This document shows, piece after piece, positions 51,572 to 60,312 of a stretch of DNA of 64,000 nt (position 1 is the stretch's first letter; each line of letters starts with the position of its first letter). The DNA lies in contig JAOASC010000020.1 of NCBI GenBank assembly GCA_025210295.1, forward strand, positions 62,001 through 126,000, read 5' to 3'. The stretch comes from Flavobacteriales bacterium (GTDB taxonomy: Bacteria; Bacteroidota; Bacteroidia; Flavobacteriales_D; Parvicellaceae). The position numbers and the translations under genes are program-made. The notes under the pieces were generated by a model that searched no databases, was not told where the DNA came from, and saw only the letters and a program-made list of their open reading frames with translations.

Positions 51572-52312
51572 ATGAAACGCTTACTCCCCTTTACTGTTCT
51601 TATTTTTATCATATTGGCCTGTAAAAAACCTGAAGAACGCACTTGTTGGAAAGGTAATGGCGATGAGGCAACCAAAATTATTGACCTCAATCAGATCGAT
51701 TTTAAAGGTTTTGAGTTACATGATGACATGAACTTTATTCTCATTCCTGACTCATCTAATTATATGGAGATTTCCTCCTATAAAAATAGAGTTGATCATT
51801 TTAATTATTACACAGCAGATAGCCTTTTGGTAATTGAGGATAAGAGCAAATGTGACTTTCTTCGTGACTTTGATAAAAAAACTCAAATCGAAATTCACTA
51901 TAAAAACATTAGTGTTTTAAACATTAAAGGAAATGGAAACGTCAGCACTTCCTCTCCTATTTCCAACAACATTCTACACATTTATTCGCATTCAGCAAAT
52001 GGAGATCTCAATATTGAAGTTAACGCCAATAGTTTGGTCGTTAAACTAATTAATGGGACGCTAACTGGACTAATAAAAGGACAAGCTGAAAGCGCTAATT
52101 TATTTCATTTTGGCTATAGCAAAATTAACTTTGAAAGCTTAGAAGTAGAACACCTCAGAGTTAGTAATAAAAGTGATTCTGATGTTTTTGTAAAAAGTAA
52201 TAACACCTTAGTTGTTGAGTTATTGAGCTTAGGTAAAATTTATTATAAAGGTACTCCTACTACAGCTATTATTTCTAACACTATGGGAAGCCAACTTATT
52301 GATAATAATTAA
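51572..52312 (+). CDS. Lipoprotein with a head GIN (DUF2807) domain
   Basis: The 246-residue product has a lipoprotein signal (IFIILACKK). The mature part is a repeating beta structure with FKGFELHDDMNFILIPDSSNY, IEIHYKNISVLNIKGNGNVS, and VVKLINGTLTGLIKGQAESAN, like DUF2807 (putative auto-transporter adhesin, head GIN domain). Common in Bacteroidota as a surface protein; function is unknown. Its stop overlaps the next start by one base (TAATG). Confidence 0.78.
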   Translation: MKRLLPFTVLIFIILACKKPEERTCWKGNGDEATKIIDLNQIDFKGFELHDDMNFILIPDSSNYMEISSYKNRVDHFNYYTADSLLVIEDKSKCDFLRDFDKKTQIEIHYKNISVLNIKGNGNVSTSSPISNNILHIYSHSANGDLNIEVNANSLVVKLINGTLTGLIKGQAESANLFHFGYSKINFESLEVEHLRVSNKSDSDVFVKSNNTLVVELLSLGKIYYKGTPTTAIISNTMGSQLIDNN

Positions 52313-54279
52313 TGAAAGTTCTACTTAAAAACGGTCTCCTCATACTGTTATTTACTTATATCAGTATATTACTTCATCGAGGAGAAATCAATGATTTTCC
52401 TAAACATATCCATGCTTGGGCTCAAAGTGATTATTATGCTTTATCCTTAGGTTTTATTGATAACGGTTTGGATTTTTTTCACCCTCAAAACTTTGTACAA
52501 AATCCACAATTCCCTGATTATTTTCAGACTCCCAAAGAGAATGGAATTACCGCTGCCGACTTCCCTATTCACACCTATAATGTAGCTTTGTTGATGCGAT
52601 TATTTGATAGTGAAGCGCCTTGGATTTTTAGAAGTTATACCTTATTTTTTAGTATTGTAGGGATGCTGTTTTTATTTCTTTTGATTAAAGCTCTGAATGG
52701 TTCAGATATTAAGGCTTTATTTGGAGTAGCTCTGCTTTTGTTATCGCCTGTTTACCTTTATTATAGAGCAGGATTTTTACCGTCTATACCAGCACTTTCT
52801 TTTGTTATTATTGCTTATTACTACTATCTTCTTTATTTAAAAAAAGGACAGTATCAATCTTTTTATATAGCCATTACTTTTTTTACATTGGCAACTTTAA
52901 CTCGAACGCCATTTGCTATTTTCTTAATTGCTACGTTTTGCCAAGAGGGATTAAATGTGCTCAAAAAAAGAAAGATGAACTATACTATTCTAGCTAGTTA
53001 TCTTATTTCTTTTTCATTCATTATTGGGTATTTTATCTATAACAATTACTTGAGAAGTCTATATGGCTCTATTTTTCTGAGTAAACCATTAACTCCCGAT
53101 AGCTGGGAAGTTGCTAAGCATTTATTCTATTCAGCACTTGAAAATTGGAAATGGCATTATTTAACCAAATGGCACTATTTATTTCTTCCTGTTTCTTTAA
53201 TACTTGGGGTAATTCAATTGATCAGAACTAAAACCATTTCTCCCCTCCATCAACAATTATTATTACAATTTGTGATTGTCTTAACAGGCGTTTTGATGTA
53301 TTCATTTTTAATGCTAAAGCAATTTAAAGCGCACGATTATTACTTTATTGATACATTTTTTACTCCTTTTATCCTCTACACAGTTATTATCCTCACTTAT
53401 ATAAAGTTTGATCGATTTTACTTCAATTTAATTGCTGCTGGTTTGCTTGTTTATGCTACTAAAGCAATGACAGATCATACTTTAGATGCTCAAATCCAAC
53501 GTAAAGAGACTGGTTCTTGGGATAAAACACTAGCTGTGATTAATAGCTATTCTGGAGGGGATCAGTTATTACATCAACTCAACATTCCCAAAGACGCCAA
53601 GCTATTAGTTTTAGATTCTGAAGCTCCCAATATTCCGTTTATCCTTTTAAGAAGATATGGTTATAGTGTTCACTTCTTAACTCAAGACAACATCATTAAA
53701 AAAATGGACTGGAACTACGACTATATTGTTATGCAAGACCATATAGCTCAACATATTGTTAATAGTATTTTCCCTGAATTGAGTCATTATATTCAAAGAA
53801 TTGGTGGTAATGGTGCTTTTTCTGTTTATCAGAAACTAGCAACCCCTGCTCCTAAATCAATTGACCAATTACTTCAAATAGACCAACAACAACCATTTTA
53901 TCAGAACACAATTAAAAGGGATAGTATTTGGAGAAATAAAGACTTTAATGCCGACTCTTTAATCGTAATTGATCAGCATGAAGAGTTTGGACTGACTTTG
54001 GAACGCTACAACTTAGAACAGCTTACTGCTAAAAACTGTTTAATTAAAATTAATCTAGACATCCGAAGTGATGCGTTAAAATCTGCAAATTTAATTTTTG
54101 CGATATCCAATGAAAACGAGACCTTTACCTACCAAGATCGTAAAGTTCAAACAGGAAATCACTCCTATTTATTTACCTCTCAACCTGTTGCTTCTCCCAA
54201 TCATAAAGTAAGCCTTTATATCTGGAACGGAGGTAAAGAAAAAATATTGGTCAAAGATTTTAAAGTGACGATGTATTGA
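52312..54279 (+). CDS. Large GT-C glycosyltransferase-like membrane protein
   Basis: The 655-residue protein has about ten membrane helices in the first 360 residues, beginning LLKNGLLILLFTYISILLHRGE. The first loop has HIHAWAQSDYYALSLGF and NGITAADFPIHTYNVALL, with an Asp placed as in GT-C enzymes. The C-terminal 250 residues are soluble and probably periplasmic. It probably transfers a sugar from a polyprenyl carrier. It is coupled to the GIN lipoprotein gene. Confidence 0.75.
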   Translation: MKVLLKNGLLILLFTYISILLHRGEINDFPKHIHAWAQSDYYALSLGFIDNGLDFFHPQNFVQNPQFPDYFQTPKENGITAADFPIHTYNVALLMRLFDSEAPWIFRSYTLFFSIVGMLFLFLLIKALNGSDIKALFGVALLLLSPVYLYYRAGFLPSIPALSFVIIAYYYYLLYLKKGQYQSFYIAITFFTLATLTRTPFAIFLIATFCQEGLNVLKKRKMNYTILASYLISFSFIIGYFIYNNYLRSLYGSIFLSKPLTPDSWEVAKHLFYSALENWKWHYLTKWHYLFLPVSLILGVIQLIRTKTISPLHQQLLLQFVIVLTGVLMYSFLMLKQFKAHDYYFIDTFFTPFILYTVIILTYIKFDRFYFNLIAAGLLVYATKAMTDHTLDAQIQRKETGSWDKTLAVINSYSGGDQLLHQLNIPKDAKLLVLDSEAPNIPFILLRRYGYSVHFLTQDNIIKKMDWNYDYIVMQDHIAQHIVNSIFPELSHYIQRIGGNGAFSVYQKLATPAPKSIDQLLQIDQQQPFYQNTIKRDSIWRNKDFNADSLIVIDQHEEFGLTLERYNLEQLTAKNCLIKINLDIRSDALKSANLIFAISNENETFTYQDRKVQTGNHSYLFTSQPVASPNHKVSLYIWNGGKEKILVKDFKVTMY

Positions 54280-54585: not shown

Positions 54586-55302
54586 TCAAAGTCCAGCAAC
54601 TAGACTTCTGAGTTCTTCCTCTATTAGCAATCCTTTTGAGTTAGAAGAAATGGCAAAGGATAACTTAACTTTTCTTTGTTGTTGTTCATCATTAAAAAAC
54701 TCTATGTTTATTCCGTTTTTAATCACCACCCAAGGGTAAGCAATAACTTTATTGACTAGCACTGTTTTTAACTCTTCCAATTTAACTTGATTGGAAACTG
54801 CTAATATTAAGGTTTGATTTTTAATTTGACGATTCGATATGGGCTTTATCAACACATTGGTAAACAATTTACTATATGGCAATTGAACAATTTCGCCATT
54901 CTTTAATTCAATGCTCATTTTGGTTTCCCCCATTTTAATGATTCTACCTTTAAAGTCATTAAGTTGGATTTGTTGACCAATAATATCTCCTTTTTGGAAC
55001 CTAAAAACTGTTCCTTGTACAAAATCACGTAAAATAGTCCAAGTTAACCCTAAGATAATACCAGTTAAAGCCAGTGTTAGAAGTGGTTGATATTTTCCAA
55101 ATGTATAGACGATTTTAACGACAAATAAAATCCAAACGATGTTACGTATTAGTGGTACATAAAACGCTAGCCAATCATGCCAACGCTCCTTTTTAATCAT
55201 GCGAATGACAACATGTTGAAGCACCATAAAAAAACTAATAATCCAAAAAGCTTGAATTAATAGCAGGACAATTACTTTTAAAGGGATGTTTTGAAATTCC
55301 AT
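54586..55302 (-). CDS. MscS-like mechanosensitive channel
   Basis: The 238-residue protein has three to four membrane helices, then the MscS beta domain: DFVQGTVFRFQKGDIIGQQIQLNDFKGRIIKMGETKMSIELKNGEIVQLPYSKLF. The 110 residues after it are a cytoplasmic domain. It begins 12 bases after the giant SLC12-AAA+ gene stops, so the two are probably one transcript. A channel that opens on membrane tension beside a cation-chloride-type transporter fits turgor control, by inference. Confidence 0.85.
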   Translation of the reverse strand: MEFQNIPLKVIVLLLIQAFWIISFFMVLQHVVIRMIKKERWHDWLAFYVPLIRNIVWILFVVKIVYTFGKYQPLLTLALTGIILGLTWTILRDFVQGTVFRFQKGDIIGQQIQLNDFKGRIIKMGETKMSIELKNGEIVQLPYSKLFTNVLIKPISNRQIKNQTLILAVSNQVKLEELKTVLVNKVIAYPWVVIKNGINIEFFNDEQQQRKVKLSFAISSNSKGLLIEEELRSLVAGL

Positions 55303-55314
55303 TTTTATATCTTC

Positions 55315-58300
55315 TTAATTAATCAGTTCTTTTCTTCTTAAGTGTCTCACAATTTTTAAAGTAACAAAAGGGTTAATTTGATAATTCTTTACTCCAATCT
55401 CATTGATGAGCCCCATTCTGTATAAGCTTTCCACATTATTGAACAATTGTTCCTTATTTTCGAATTTATAAATCTTTTCTAAACGCTTCATTGAAAGCTC
55501 TTTATGAAGTAAGATTTGTAATAAGATATTATCTTGTTCAATCGTCAACATATTGGGTAACTCTTGTTGGTCAATAGTATGGTAAACAAGGGTATTATTT
55601 TGTACATCCTCTATATTTCCTAACCAAGTATAAAAACAAGCTCCGATATTCCCTTCAGAAACAGCGGCAATTCGTTTAATTATTTGATTTTCTCTACGTT
55701 TCCCAAGTTCTTTTTCATGCTTTCCTTTCCATTCATATTGTAACCCTCCACTTCTATGTCTACTAAGAATTGCAATACGAATATCATGAATTTTTAATGG
55801 ACTTAATGTAATGGTCTCCAATAAATTAGTATCAAGATCAACAACTTTTCGAAGCAACTGATAACTATGTGTATTACAACTCAAAAGAAAAAGAACTTTA
55901 TGCCTATACTTTTGAATTAGGGAATTAAAATGACTTAAAGACAACGTTCCTTTTTCTGTTCTAGTCCACCACAGCTCTATATCTTCAATCACTACTACAG
56001 CATTGTTGGGTAATTGGTTCATCAGCTCATCTATCGATAAATTTTGACCTGAAGCATTCTTAAAGGCTCTTTCGATCAGACGTTCAGCATCACCAAAATT
56101 CATTGATGGCTTTTCAATTTTTAAAACTTTCTCAAAACTATTGATATTCAATATATTCTCGATCAGATAACTCATCCCTGAATGGTGCTCTCCTGTAAAT
56201 AAAATCGCTCCTTTCTTTCCAAATTGATACTTTTCATAAGCATTTGAAAACTGTGAAATTTCACTCATCCTATTCGATAAAGGTGTAGTTGGAGCGTTAT
56301 GTTTACCAGTAAACAACTGCTGATAGTAAAAAGGTAATTTTTGATTAATCGTCTTAGAAATAGAAATTTTATCTACAAAGGCTCCTATTTTAGAATGAGG
56401 ATTTTGAAGAGCTTTAGTTCGATACTGATGACTAGATATTGCTAATAGATCTTTTCCTTTTATAATTAATTTATCTACTTTATTATTGGTCTTATCTATT
56501 AAGTAACTTGCTCTCCTTGTATATTTTTTGTATCCCTTTTTAGCCTTTTCTCTTCTAATAATACCATTCAAATTTTCTGCTCTCCCCAGTACGATATCAT
56601 CTACTAAAATAGTCTTGAGATGGGTAATAATATGCTTGATTTCAACAGCTAAGCGCTCACTTACTGTCCCTAAATGCGTAACTGACTCCGAAAGTTCTAA
56701 TTGAACTTTATCTTTTACTTTTTTCAATAGAATGGCATCCTCCTCTTGGTTGGTGATTGAAAATTGTAACAAACGAATGCTATTTTCCATTTTCAATGAT
56801 TCTGACTTTACTTCATTAGCTATCAGATGCAGTAAACTATTTACTTCATTGATGATTTCATTTTCAATTAAATAATCTGTTACTCGTCGTACATTTATTT
56901 GATCAGGCGCAATATCATCTTGTCGCTGTTCAAATTCATTTAACGCTTTTAACGGAATAACTTCAACATCTCTACAAAATGCTTTAATCTTCTGTTCTAT
57001 TTCTTCGGTTAATCCTTGTACAAAATGTTCGACATTAAAATCTATCCCTAATTCTAAAAGTTTATTCTCAAGATCTATCAAGTTATCCACCTCCAAGCTA
57101 TCAGCGTCATCCATTACAGTTTCAGCAATAGCTATGATTGGGTTGATCTCCTTTTCCTGAATCTCAGTATTCAATGCATTAACATGCGGAATGATCGTAT
57201 CCTTAAGTTTCAATAAACTCACATTAACACTCAATTGGTTAAGTAAGTAACCTGAATTATTTTTCCATGTAGAAGGGTAATTAGATATTGATTCATAAAT
57301 GGCTTTTAAAGCACTAGCACTTCTTTCTTCTTCTCTAAGAATTACAAGATCTTTTATTTCAAGCTTATTGGCATCTAATAAGATGGTATTACTATACTTT
57401 CTACTCAATCTATTGAGCACATTGTACGTACGTTGCTTATACCTCAAAATATGTTGATGTAGGGCCTCTCCTAGTTCTTTTATTGCTGCTCTTTTTTCTG
57501 TTTCATCTTTTAACTCAGCCCATTCTAACAGCCATTTTTTGATGACGACATTTAATTGAAATGAAGCCAATCCTATTGTATTCAATTTAGCTTTGAATTC
57601 TACTAAATACCCATTTTCATAATGATGTTGCGCAATTGCCTGAATCTTAACTTTAGATTTTGGTTGTTTAGTCCATCTTGTTAATCGTTTCTTTTGCTTA
57701 GCTAATTTAGCGGAATCACTTGATTTAATCAGCAATTCATCTGGTGTAAATTCTCGAACTACTTGAAAGGGCAATTCATCTATAGCTCCTTTAATGTTTT
57801 TTATTTGATTTTTTATTCCAAGGGCTATTCCCTCGCCTACAGCACTCAACCTATTGTCTTGTATATCAATTAATAATTGCTCAATTTGTTCAAGTACAGC
57901 AGCTGTTTCCATATTATCATCAGACAACACTGATGAAAACACTTCATAAACCTTATTTAAGGGGTTATAAACAGCATTCACAAAATTTTCGTTGGACACT
58001 AATAATTGTTGATCTAAATGTTCAACGATTGGAGATGCTTCATGGAAAGCAACATTACCCAAAGCAGGAAGTTCTTCTTCAAGTTTAACTTCTAAATGAT
58101 TGTTGGATATGGTATTGAACTCCTTTTCAATTTTAGAATTGACCCCTAAACCATCATGAAAATGAGAAGATCCTTTAACAATTAATGTTGTTCCTAAAAT
58201 TGCTAACAAATCATTAGTTGAAGCAACAAAATGTGCTTCATTGGTCTCATCTAATTCTGGTAAGTCTATGATAATTAAATCAGATTCAAAAGAATACGTT

Positions 58301-60312
58301 TTTACAATTTCATAAAAATTCTTCTGTTCTATTTCATTGTTAATGACTTCTATAGAAACTTGATTTCTTAGCTCTTCTGTTCGTTTTTCAATCGCTTTCT
58401 TAATTGAATACTGTAGCCCATTATCATTGTTTAGGAAGAAAAACCTTACAGAAGCATTTGACCAATCACTTGAGGTCATCAATAACTTTGTTAACTGAAC
58501 TGTAAGGTAGCTAAGTTGTGAGATATCATTCCACCATATATCTATTTTTTGTTTGTTTCCGAATCCTTTTTCAGCATCATAATCTAGAAACAGAACGTTA
58601 TAGTCTAATTGATGTAATGAATTAGTCAGCGCTGTAAAACGTGTGGGATCTTTAGTATTCCTCGCCCACCCCATTAAGACCGTATTGGGTTCAATACCAG
58701 AGAACCCATAGGTTTCTGCAATGACTTCAATTCCTGTATAAATATCTTTACACTCTTGTTTGCGATGAAAAATAGAATCATCATGAATATCATCGAGTGC
58801 TACTGATTGTTTATGCTTAGGGAATAATAATTTTGCTGTTTTATTTTCTATCAAGTCAAAATTTGAAATCATCCCATTTCTTCCAGCTATGGATTTACTG
58901 AATTCTAAAAGATGGGGTCTTGCTTTAGTACCTCCACTAAACAACAGAATATTGGGCTCCCAGTTTCGATTATGTGTTGTTTTTTTATTTAGATTTTTCA
59001 ATCCTAATTTAACAACTGAACTCCATACACTCTGCCATACATCTCCAGATCCTAACTCGAGTTGCTTACGTGTTAGCCAAAGGAAAATTATTCCCATAAT
59101 AAGTACAGAAACCAATGCCGCAACCAAATTAAGCTGAATCATTAGAAGAAATGTAGCAATAGTTCCTACTAGGGGGACAAAAATAGAAATCCTAAATGTT
59201 GGACGAAAATCTGGACTTGCCCATTGTTCTAGGAAACATGAAAGATTAATAAACAAATAAGCTGCCATATAAAACATCGCTACGATTTCAGCTATGACAT
59301 CCAATTCTCCTATCAAAATTCCCAGCTCGGCTAATACAAATGTCAACATTAAAGCTCTACGAGGTTCATTATCTTCTCCGACACCTCGGGCAAAAAATCG
59401 AGGAGTAATCTTATCGATTGACATGGCTTGTAAAATACGTGGAGCCCCCAAAATTCCACCTAAAGCAGATGATAAGGTTGCTCCCCAAATTCCAGCTGTT
59501 ACAAAATAAACTCCATAATACCCAAACTCTACTAATGCATTATTGTTGTTTTGTAATTCTGCTACAGGAATGTTGTAATTAATAAATATTGCAAGTGTTA
59601 TGTAAACCAATAACCCTGTTCCTATGGCTAACATGGTTCCCCAGGGAATTGATTTTTTAGGATCTTTCAAGTCTCCTGACATTGCTACACCCGCTGTAAA
59701 ACCTGTTACAGCGGGGAAAAAGATACCAAATAAAACCGAAAAATCAGCTCCTCCAACACCTTCTGCTATTGAAGAAAAATCGAATCCTTTACCATCAGAA
59801 GTCCCCATAAAAACTGAGATTAATGAAAGTATGATTAATCCCAAAATGATGTATTGTGACTTAATGGCAATACTTGTACTAATGTAAGCTATGGTAACAA
59901 TAAGTGCTAATGCAGCTGTACCTATAATCCTCAAATTATTAATCGTTACATCCATCCCTAATACAGGCAGTGCACTTTCTCCAAAACCAATTAAATACAA
60001 CGCTATACTCAGGGCTGTTGCCACAAAGATCGTGACACCAATAGCTCCTCCAATTGGAAAGCCCAAACTTCTAGAGAGCATGTAATATATACCTCCTGCT
60101 TTTATTTTTTTATCTGTAGCAACAGAAGATACACTCAACCCTGTAGAAACAGAGACAATGTGTGCCATTAAAATAATAATGATGACGGTTAACAATGAAT
60201 CTGCGTTTCCTACAATCCATCCTAAACGCATGTACATGATTACCCCCAATATGGTTAATATTGATGGTGTATATACTCCTCCTAACGTTCCAAATTTTCC
60301 TCCGCTTGCCAT
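55315..60312 (-). CDS. Giant SLC12-type transporter fused to a coiled region and an AAA+-like domain
   Basis: The 1665-residue protein has three parts. Residues 1-415 are an APC/SLC12 transporter (GTLGGVYTPSILTILGVIMYMRLGWIVG, KAGGIYYMLSRSLG), about twelve helices. Residues about 450-630 match the cytosolic SLC12 domain (EPNILLFSGGTKARPHL, KIDIWWNDISQLSYLT). Residues 640-1350 are largely helical. Residues 1360-1560 are AAA+-like: a Walker A position at 1374-1381 reads GEHHSGMS, with Met1380 where Lys is usual; Walker B is VVVIED (1439-1444); sensor 1 fits Asn1480. Winged-helix-like ends follow. Cation-chloride cotransporters are known in bacteria, but this fusion is new to me. Substrate ions cannot be told. 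Confidence 0.88.
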   Translation of the reverse strand: MASGGKFGTLGGVYTPSILTILGVIMYMRLGWIVGNADSLLTVIIIILMAHIVSVSTGLSVSSVATDKKIKAGGIYYMLSRSLGFPIGGAIGVTIFVATALSIALYLIGFGESALPVLGMDVTINNLRIIGTAALALIVTIAYISTSIAIKSQYIILGLIILSLISVFMGTSDGKGFDFSSIAEGVGGADFSVLFGIFFPAVTGFTAGVAMSGDLKDPKKSIPWGTMLAIGTGLLVYITLAIFINYNIPVAELQNNNNALVEFGYYGVYFVTAGIWGATLSSALGGILGAPRILQAMSIDKITPRFFARGVGEDNEPRRALMLTFVLAELGILIGELDVIAEIVAMFYMAAYLFINLSCFLEQWASPDFRPTFRISIFVPLVGTIATFLLMIQLNLVAALVSVLIMGIIFLWLTRKQLELGSGDVWQSVWSSVVKLGLKNLNKKTTHNRNWEPNILLFSGGTKARPHLLEFSKSIAGRNGMISNFDLIENKTAKLLFPKHKQSVALDDIHDDSIFHRKQECKDIYTGIEVIAETYGFSGIEPNTVLMGWARNTKDPTRFTALTNSLHQLDYNVLFLDYDAEKGFGNKQKIDIWWNDISQLSYLTVQLTKLLMTSSDWSNASVRFFFLNNDNGLQYSIKKAIEKRTEELRNQVSIEVINNEIEQKNFYEIVKTYSFESDLIIIDLPELDETNEAHFVASTNDLLAILGTTLIVKGSSHFHDGLGVNSKIEKEFNTISNNHLEVKLEEELPALGNVAFHEASPIVEHLDQQLLVSNENFVNAVYNPLNKVYEVFSSVLSDDNMETAAVLEQIEQLLIDIQDNRLSAVGEGIALGIKNQIKNIKGAIDELPFQVVREFTPDELLIKSSDSAKLAKQKKRLTRWTKQPKSKVKIQAIAQHHYENGYLVEFKAKLNTIGLASFQLNVVIKKWLLEWAELKDETEKRAAIKELGEALHQHILRYKQRTYNVLNRLSRKYSNTILLDANKLEIKDLVILREEERSASALKAIYESISNYPSTWKNNSGYLLNQLSVNVSLLKLKDTIIPHVNALNTEIQEKEINPIIAIAETVMDDADSLEVDNLIDLENKLLELGIDFNVEHFVQGLTEEIEQKIKAFCRDVEVIPLKALNEFEQRQDDIAPDQINVRRVTDYLIENEIINEVNSLLHLIANEVKSESLKMENSIRLLQFSITNQEEDAILLKKVKDKVQLELSESVTHLGTVSERLAVEIKHIITHLKTILVDDIVLGRAENLNGIIRREKAKKGYKKYTRRASYLIDKTNNKVDKLIIKGKDLLAISSHQYRTKALQNPHSKIGAFVDKISISKTINQKLPFYYQQLFTGKHNAPTTPLSNRMSEISQFSNAYEKYQFGKKGAILFTGEHHSGMSYLIENILNINSFEKVLKIEKPSMNFGDAERLIERAFKNASGQNLSIDELMNQLPNNAVVVIEDIELWWTRTEKGTLSLSHFNSLIQKYRHKVLFLLSCNTHSYQLLRKVVDLDTNLLETITLSPLKIHDIRIAILSRHRSGGLQYEWKGKHEKELGKRRENQIIKRIAAVSEGNIGACFYTWLGNIEDVQNNTLVYHTIDQQELPNMLTIEQDNILLQILLHKELSMKRLEKIYKFENKEQLFNNVESLYRMGLINEIGVKNYQINPFVTLKIVRHLRRKELIN

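Follow-up and report, generated by a model that had tools for sequence, protein, structure and literature searches.

The window analyzed here, a 64,000-nucleotide stretch of contig JAOASC010000020.1 from a Flavobacteriales bacterium, carries a gene whose product begins as an SLC12-type ion transporter and continues far beyond the point at which such transporters end, which raises the question of what the additional part is and what it acts upon. The gene (positions 55315-60312, minus strand) is one uninterrupted ATG-started open reading frame of 1665 aa. The original prediction, made from the letters of the DNA, was that of an SLC12 transporter joined in one protein to an AAA+-like ATPase domain and a winged-helix-like end, forming an ATPase-like switch on a transporter. 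The architecture was confirmed, the order being SLC12 transporter, SLC12 cytosolic domain, helices, AAA+ domain and winged helix (Table 1); the switch is doubtful in this copy. The genome of origin contains one SLC12 gene (a single AA_permease match) and one copy of the tail.

Table 1. Positions of the features of the fusion gene and its downstream neighbor in the window.
Feature	Positions	Strand	Basis
SLC12 transmembrane domain, residues 1-430	59023..60312	-	PF00324, TIGR00930, NKCC1/KCC2 chains, ion-site residues
SLC12 cytosolic C-terminal domain, residues ~440 to ~725	58138..58995	-	PF03522 (start), KCC2 alignment, unfused homologue L203
Helical tail region, residues ~726-1300, fast evolving	56413..58137	-	AlphaFold secondary structure (low confidence), identity profile
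AAA+ domain, residues ~1339-1566	55615..56298	-	AAA_16 in 15/22 homologues; model compared with Orc1/Cdc6 and NSF-D2
Degenerate Walker A GEHHSGMS, residues 1374-1381, K replaced by M	56170..56193	-	Sequence
Walker B-like VVVIED, residues 1439-1444, kept	55981..55998	-	Sequence
C-terminal winged-helix-like domain, residues ~1591-1660	55333..55542	-	Elements 292-361 in the 1300-1665 model; Orc1/Cdc6 chains 7jgr_G, 2qby_B
MscS-family gene, 238 aa, 12 nt downstream of the fusion gene	54586..55302	-	PF00924 2e-7; same place in 52/53 tail loci

Profile matches assigned the first part of the protein to SLC12 over both the transmembrane and the cytosolic domains. An NCBIfam search matched TIGR00930 over residues 4-554 (E = 3e-115), with a score below the 953 bits set as the model's threshold, which none of the other bacterial members sampled across the phylum reached either. 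Pfam returned PF00324 (1e-41) and, for the SLC12 cytosolic domain, PF03522 (2e-6, 27.4 bits against a cut-off of 27), and the solved NKCC1 and KCC2 chains matched residues 1 to ~705 at about 1e-73. The cytosolic domain, at first placed at residues 450-630, was found to end later: the KCC2 alignment extended to residue 677-705, and the protein aligned to the end of an unfused 730-aa homologue (L203), which sets the end at about residue 725. The long extra tail is therefore real, at about 940 residues rather than the predicted 1000. When the tail was examined as an ordinary transporter extension, no SLC12 match was obtained beyond residue ~725.

In human NKCC1 the ligands of K+ are Y383, T499 and backbone atoms of N298, I299 and P496, those of Na+ are S613 and S614 together with backbone atoms, and the second Cl- is bound by Y686 with backbone atoms (PMC7889885). 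The ion-site residues in the window protein are L19, T20, I21, L22, Y106, P200, T203, A278, S281, S282 and Y352. Y106, P200, T203 and Y352 align to NKCC1 Y383, P496, T499 and Y686, comprising the K+ site and the tyrosine of the second Cl- site, and S281 and S282 are the equivalents of S613 and S614, the two TM8 serines of the NKCC type. T20 replaces N298, a residue that contacts K+ in NKCC1 through its backbone rather than its side chain. Y106, P200, T203, A278, S281, S282 and Y352 were invariant in all fused rows, and also in the unfused Bacteroidota relatives aligned. By these residues, the SLC12 part is NKCC-like in pattern, with a putative Na+-type site, and the predicted SLC12 transporter is borne out at the level of the domain and its conserved ion-site residues. 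The transmembrane domain, the cytosolic domain and the K+/Na+/Cl- site side chains are thus shared with known SLC12 cation-chloride cotransporters (NKCC1, KCC2 and the archaeal MaCCC), to which the window protein adds the AAA+/winged-helix tail and a downstream MscS-type partner.

The tail of the window protein matched no family above cut-off in Pfam, NCBIfam, PHROGs or PADLOC, so the search for a known regulatory family came back empty for this copy, whereas 15 of the 22 homologous tails matched AAA_16 (best 2e-9). Searches of PDB sequences with the tail yielded weak P-loop matches alone (PilT, ORC4). The AlphaFold prediction of the whole tail was poor (overall pLDDT 46, with five sequences in the alignment) and, at this low confidence, rendered residues ~726-1300 as nearly all helix. 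The model of residues 1300-1665 had a mean pLDDT of 58, with most of the AAA core at 60-88 and poor quality outside it, and over its whole length it best matched AAA+ proteins of the Orc1/Cdc6 type that carry a winged helix (7jgr, 1w5t and 2qby; lowest Foldseek E 5e-8). In VIA-align, 7jgr_G (Z 13.2) and 2qby_B (Z 12.7) aligned with residues 40-366 of the model at large rmsd; the program placed NSF-D2 first for the core alone, while the Orc1/Cdc6 rows covered core and winged helix, a ranking that is not decisive. At moderate model confidence, an AAA+ fold followed by a winged helix was therefore found where both had been predicted. The tail has this order of domains in common with Orc1/Cdc6-type AAA+ proteins and STAND NTPases (AAA_16, AAA_22), but it differs in being joined to membrane transport proteins, by fusion or as a gene pair, in frequently missing the Walker A lysine and in lying outside curated families. 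It also evolves much faster than the transporter (10-39% against 30-87% mean identity per 30 residues), and the helical region at ~726-1300 retains 10-27% mean identity to relatives per 30 residues, compared with 36-87% in most of the SLC12 part.

The Walker A motif GxxxxGK[ST] is absent from the window protein, which has GEHHSGMS in its place, while the acidic pair of a Walker B motif of the hhhhD[DE] type is present (VVVIED). Walker A was degenerate in all four sequences of the window's genus (GEHHSGMS, GEHYAGSS, GERLCGAT and GEEHSGIS), all of which kept the Walker B acidic pair. Because the lysine is missing, an active ATPase in this genus is doubtful and hydrolysis is unlikely; the window copy probably does not split ATP, and the predicted ATPase-like switch may be false for it. 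The strict pattern was present in 24 of the 32 SLC12-fused tails, in 3/5 of those fused to a CPA2-like antiporter and in 23/34 other tails, and most members of the family can be expected, from their motifs, to bind and perhaps split ATP; the G007 relative, for example, reads GDPFSGKS. By the same pattern, Walker A was degenerate in 21 of 71 tails, a few of which are incomplete sequences or still have the lysine, as L051 does (GEQLSGKK), indicating that nucleotide use is not constant across the tails. In two sister fused proteins (L040 and L045) Walker A was lost and Walker B altered, and the MscS gene was kept.

The unusual length of the gene is all that would speak for a frameshift, a chimera or an assembly error having joined two genes. 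This explanation is ruled out, its remaining probability being negligible, since single-frame full-length relatives of 1630-1716 aa were recovered from dozens of independent genomes. The search for the same fusion in other Bacteroidota was positive across several families: full-length fusions came from the order to which the window belongs, its own genus and family included, and beyond that order from other families (G293, G127, G276) and a Bacteroidales MAG (L034); those outside the genus were 34-51% identical over their length. In the sample of the order, the AAA+ part was found in 52 of 249 genomes, nearly always in frames of 1630-1706 aa, and nearly all members of the window's family carry the fusion; most ordinary SLC12 frames of bacteria in this phylum measure 716-860 aa. 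All fused sequences formed one clade of the transporter-domain tree (support 100) with one truly unfused member inside, and the trees followed families. The SLC12-AAA+ fusion is thus old and conserved. A MAG locus (L033) considered as a case of truly separate genes was rejected, as it proved to be a frameshifted fragment of a fused gene.

The gene directly downstream of the fusion in the window belongs to the MscS family of mechanosensitive channels (PF00924, 31.4 bits against a cut-off of 20.2, over the MS_channel beta-domain), and its product shares with MscS channels three hydrophobic helices, the beta-domain and a C-terminal alpha/beta part. Among the 53 tail loci with a readable downstream gene, some of which are close relatives, an MscS-family gene occupied this place in 52 (22/22, 19/20 and 11/11 in three locus sets): 31/31 SLC12-fused, 5/5 CPA2-fused, 14/14 stand-alone tails (~930-1036 aa) and 2/3 short forms. 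The gap between the two genes was usually -4 to +12 nt. None of the 21 unfused SLC12 loci had an MscS-type gene within ~4 kb. As each genome holds 3-7 MscS-type genes, chance adjacency is negligible. In a tree of the 52 linked MscS proteins and 21 paralogues from the same genomes, a single change separated the two groups, compared with a mean of 18 changes after shuffling; the branch between them has moderate support (75), and several branches are long. Linked proteins of the SLC12 branch are divergent (PF00924 at just 34-40 bits), while those beside stand-alone tails are full-length with strong matches (70-76 bits). The sole tail locus without a recognizable MscS gene (L097, 5868-9975) has instead a 185-aa three-helix protein, followed by a CPA antiporter. 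This protein and the divergence in the SLC12 branch suggest that some partners may not be channels. The two forms coexist in one genome, G127 (L086, L098), where one tail is fused to SLC12 and the other stands alone, each with an MscS gene of its own, and at a stand-alone AAA+ locus (L088:3779-7917) the linked MscS gene is followed by two more MscS-matching genes with a 360-aa membrane protein between them.

An NTPase next to an MscS-type protein could also be read as an anti-phage system, in which a STAND-like sensor would trigger a membrane effector. MscS-type effectors are known in defense, and weak nSTAND model matches among the tails, together with a Foldseek match to Avs4, are consistent with it. 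Defense genes are usually patchy and located in islands; the present genes are carried by nearly all members of the window's family, in trees that follow families, and their housekeeping flanks are conserved over 13-14 loci of that family (CoA transferase) and at seven loci elsewhere (amidase, uridine kinase). These flanks and the lack of any PADLOC match for the tail make a defense role very improbable. The divergent upstream neighbors in the 13-14 family loci, exemplified by L036:1388-3968, are a CoA transferase of family III and two further genes, and were not seen upstream in the window.

The same tail was also found behind a different transporter. In five genomes (G131, G245, G119, G241 and G430) frames of 1495-1501 aa carry it behind a CPA2-like antiporter domain. 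PF00999 matched this domain in G131 (7e-19) and G245 (4e-21); the copies of G241 and G430 diverge too far to be matched by Pfam and were assigned by a match to G131 (31% over 800 residues). The five loci share MscS, TrkH and TrkA genes, identified in G131 (TrkH 3e-59, TrkA 7e-25) and present as the same clusters in all five. At L094:4663-13955 the 1501-aa CPA2-helical-AAA+ fusion and the MscS-type, TrkH and TrkA genes are accompanied by an upstream 422-aa membrane protein without a Pfam match, and this order is repeated in L095, L172, L173 and L174. In three further genomes (G121, G133 and G235) the AAA+ protein is shorter (749-808 aa); its gene precedes a reduced MscS-like gene and, after that, a CPA antiporter encoded separately, with PF00999 matches of 9e-19 and 2e-22 for the two antiporters scanned. 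The CPA2-fused rows formed one clade of the AAA+ tree and the short forms another. As the tail recurs on a CPA2 antiporter with TrkH and TrkA as neighbors, it is the tail that stays constant while the transporter changes: the tail is a separate module, found alone, fused to SLC12 or fused to an unrelated cation/proton antiporter.

Two natural variants separate the components. G037 has a 964-aa tail gene followed by an MscS gene and no SLC12 gene anywhere in its genome; its tail is nested among the SLC12-fused tails (support 93), most simply explained by loss of the transporter with retention of tail and MscS. In G283 an SLC12 protein inside the fused clade stops after its cytosolic domain; its gene has no MscS neighbor, and the tail is missing from the whole genome. 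These variants, one case each, suggest that MscS goes with the tail, not with the transporter. The G037 case bears on the possibility that the MscS-type protein is a non-channel membrane adaptor, with which the tail would regulate the transporter alone in cis, for instance by sensing ions or nucleotides. The shortness and divergence of the linked MscS proteins in the SLC12 branch, and their further reduction beside the short AAA+ forms, would agree with an adaptor; the persistence of tail and MscS without a transporter in G037 and the many stand-alone pairs with a full-length MscS protein argue against it, and we regard it as quite unlikely.

It appears, on balance, somewhat more probable than not that the tail serves ion and volume control by coupling transporters of K+ and other ions to a dedicated MscS-type protein. 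The unit would have two parts in Bacteroidota, an Orc1/Cdc6-like AAA+ protein with a long helical arm and a dedicated MscS-family membrane protein; in the window's branch SLC12 would serve as the N-terminus of the AAA+ protein, so that transporter and tail are anchored at the membrane beside the MscS-type protein. The SLC12 part would move K+ and Cl- (the Na+-type site is also conserved), and the tail may touch the cytosolic cage of the MscS-type protein and tie the opening of this protein to how the transporter or the cytoplasmic ions stand, so that ion uptake and an emergency release path would be set together. The physical contact, the direction of control and any use of nucleotide are what we infer here, and vertically inherited shared operons can persist without contact between their products, a point against coupling. 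A more far-reaching form, which we hold only tentatively, would give a dedicated MscS-type channel of Bacteroidota an obligate partner in the cytosol, the AAA+ family, which would also act as an exchangeable regulatory hub joined to transporters of unrelated folds (SLC12 and CPA2), with one AAA+ protein setting both the transporter and the release channel.

The tail might instead be an assembly or stability factor that folds, inserts or places the MscS-type protein, with the transporters as anchors or complex partners and no gating switch. AAA+ domains often serve as remodeling or loading factors, the pair persists where several lineages have lost Walker A, and the tail has outpaced the transporter in evolution, as scaffolds often do. 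Such a factor would have no need of repeated fusion to ion transporters of two unrelated families or of TrkH/TrkA neighbors, and this alternative seems unlikely, if less so than the adaptor.

Coupling of transporter and MscS-type protein would resemble KefB/KefC and TrkA-type K+ systems, in which a cytosolic nucleotide-binding regulator is likewise joined to a K+ transporter, a likeness extended by the TrkH/TrkA genes adjoining the CPA2-fused loci. The regulator here is, however, a helical-AAA+ tail, not an RCK/TrkA-N domain, and an MscS-type protein is a constant part. The linked MscS proteins differ from other MscS proteins in always standing beside an AAA+ protein and in being set apart, with moderate support, from the paralogues of their genomes. 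The building blocks are each known; neither the combination nor the AAA+ family was present in the libraries searched, and the open-access literature yielded no paper describing a fusion of SLC12 with AAA+ or a pairing of AAA+ with MscS. Animal cells regulate their volume by SLC12 cotransporters under kinase control, and the literature found contained no account of the regulation of bacterial SLC12 proteins. The module places an SLC12 protein, an AAA+ domain and an MscS-type channel in one operon; if the coupling is true, an AAA+ protein of the cytosol can be the dedicated partner of an MscS-type channel, and one protein can set both ion uptake and release. The coupling is testable thanks to the variants that occur in nature: a tail on its own, a transporter on its own, and tails that have lost Walker A.

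Among the neighboring genes, a 655-aa many-helix membrane protein is encoded at positions 52312-54279 of the window, on the opposite strand and convergent with the MscS gene. In one Bacteroidota genome, several neighboring genes (L204:22-11365) matched the SLC12 transmembrane profile, with E values from 1e-134 to 1e-12.
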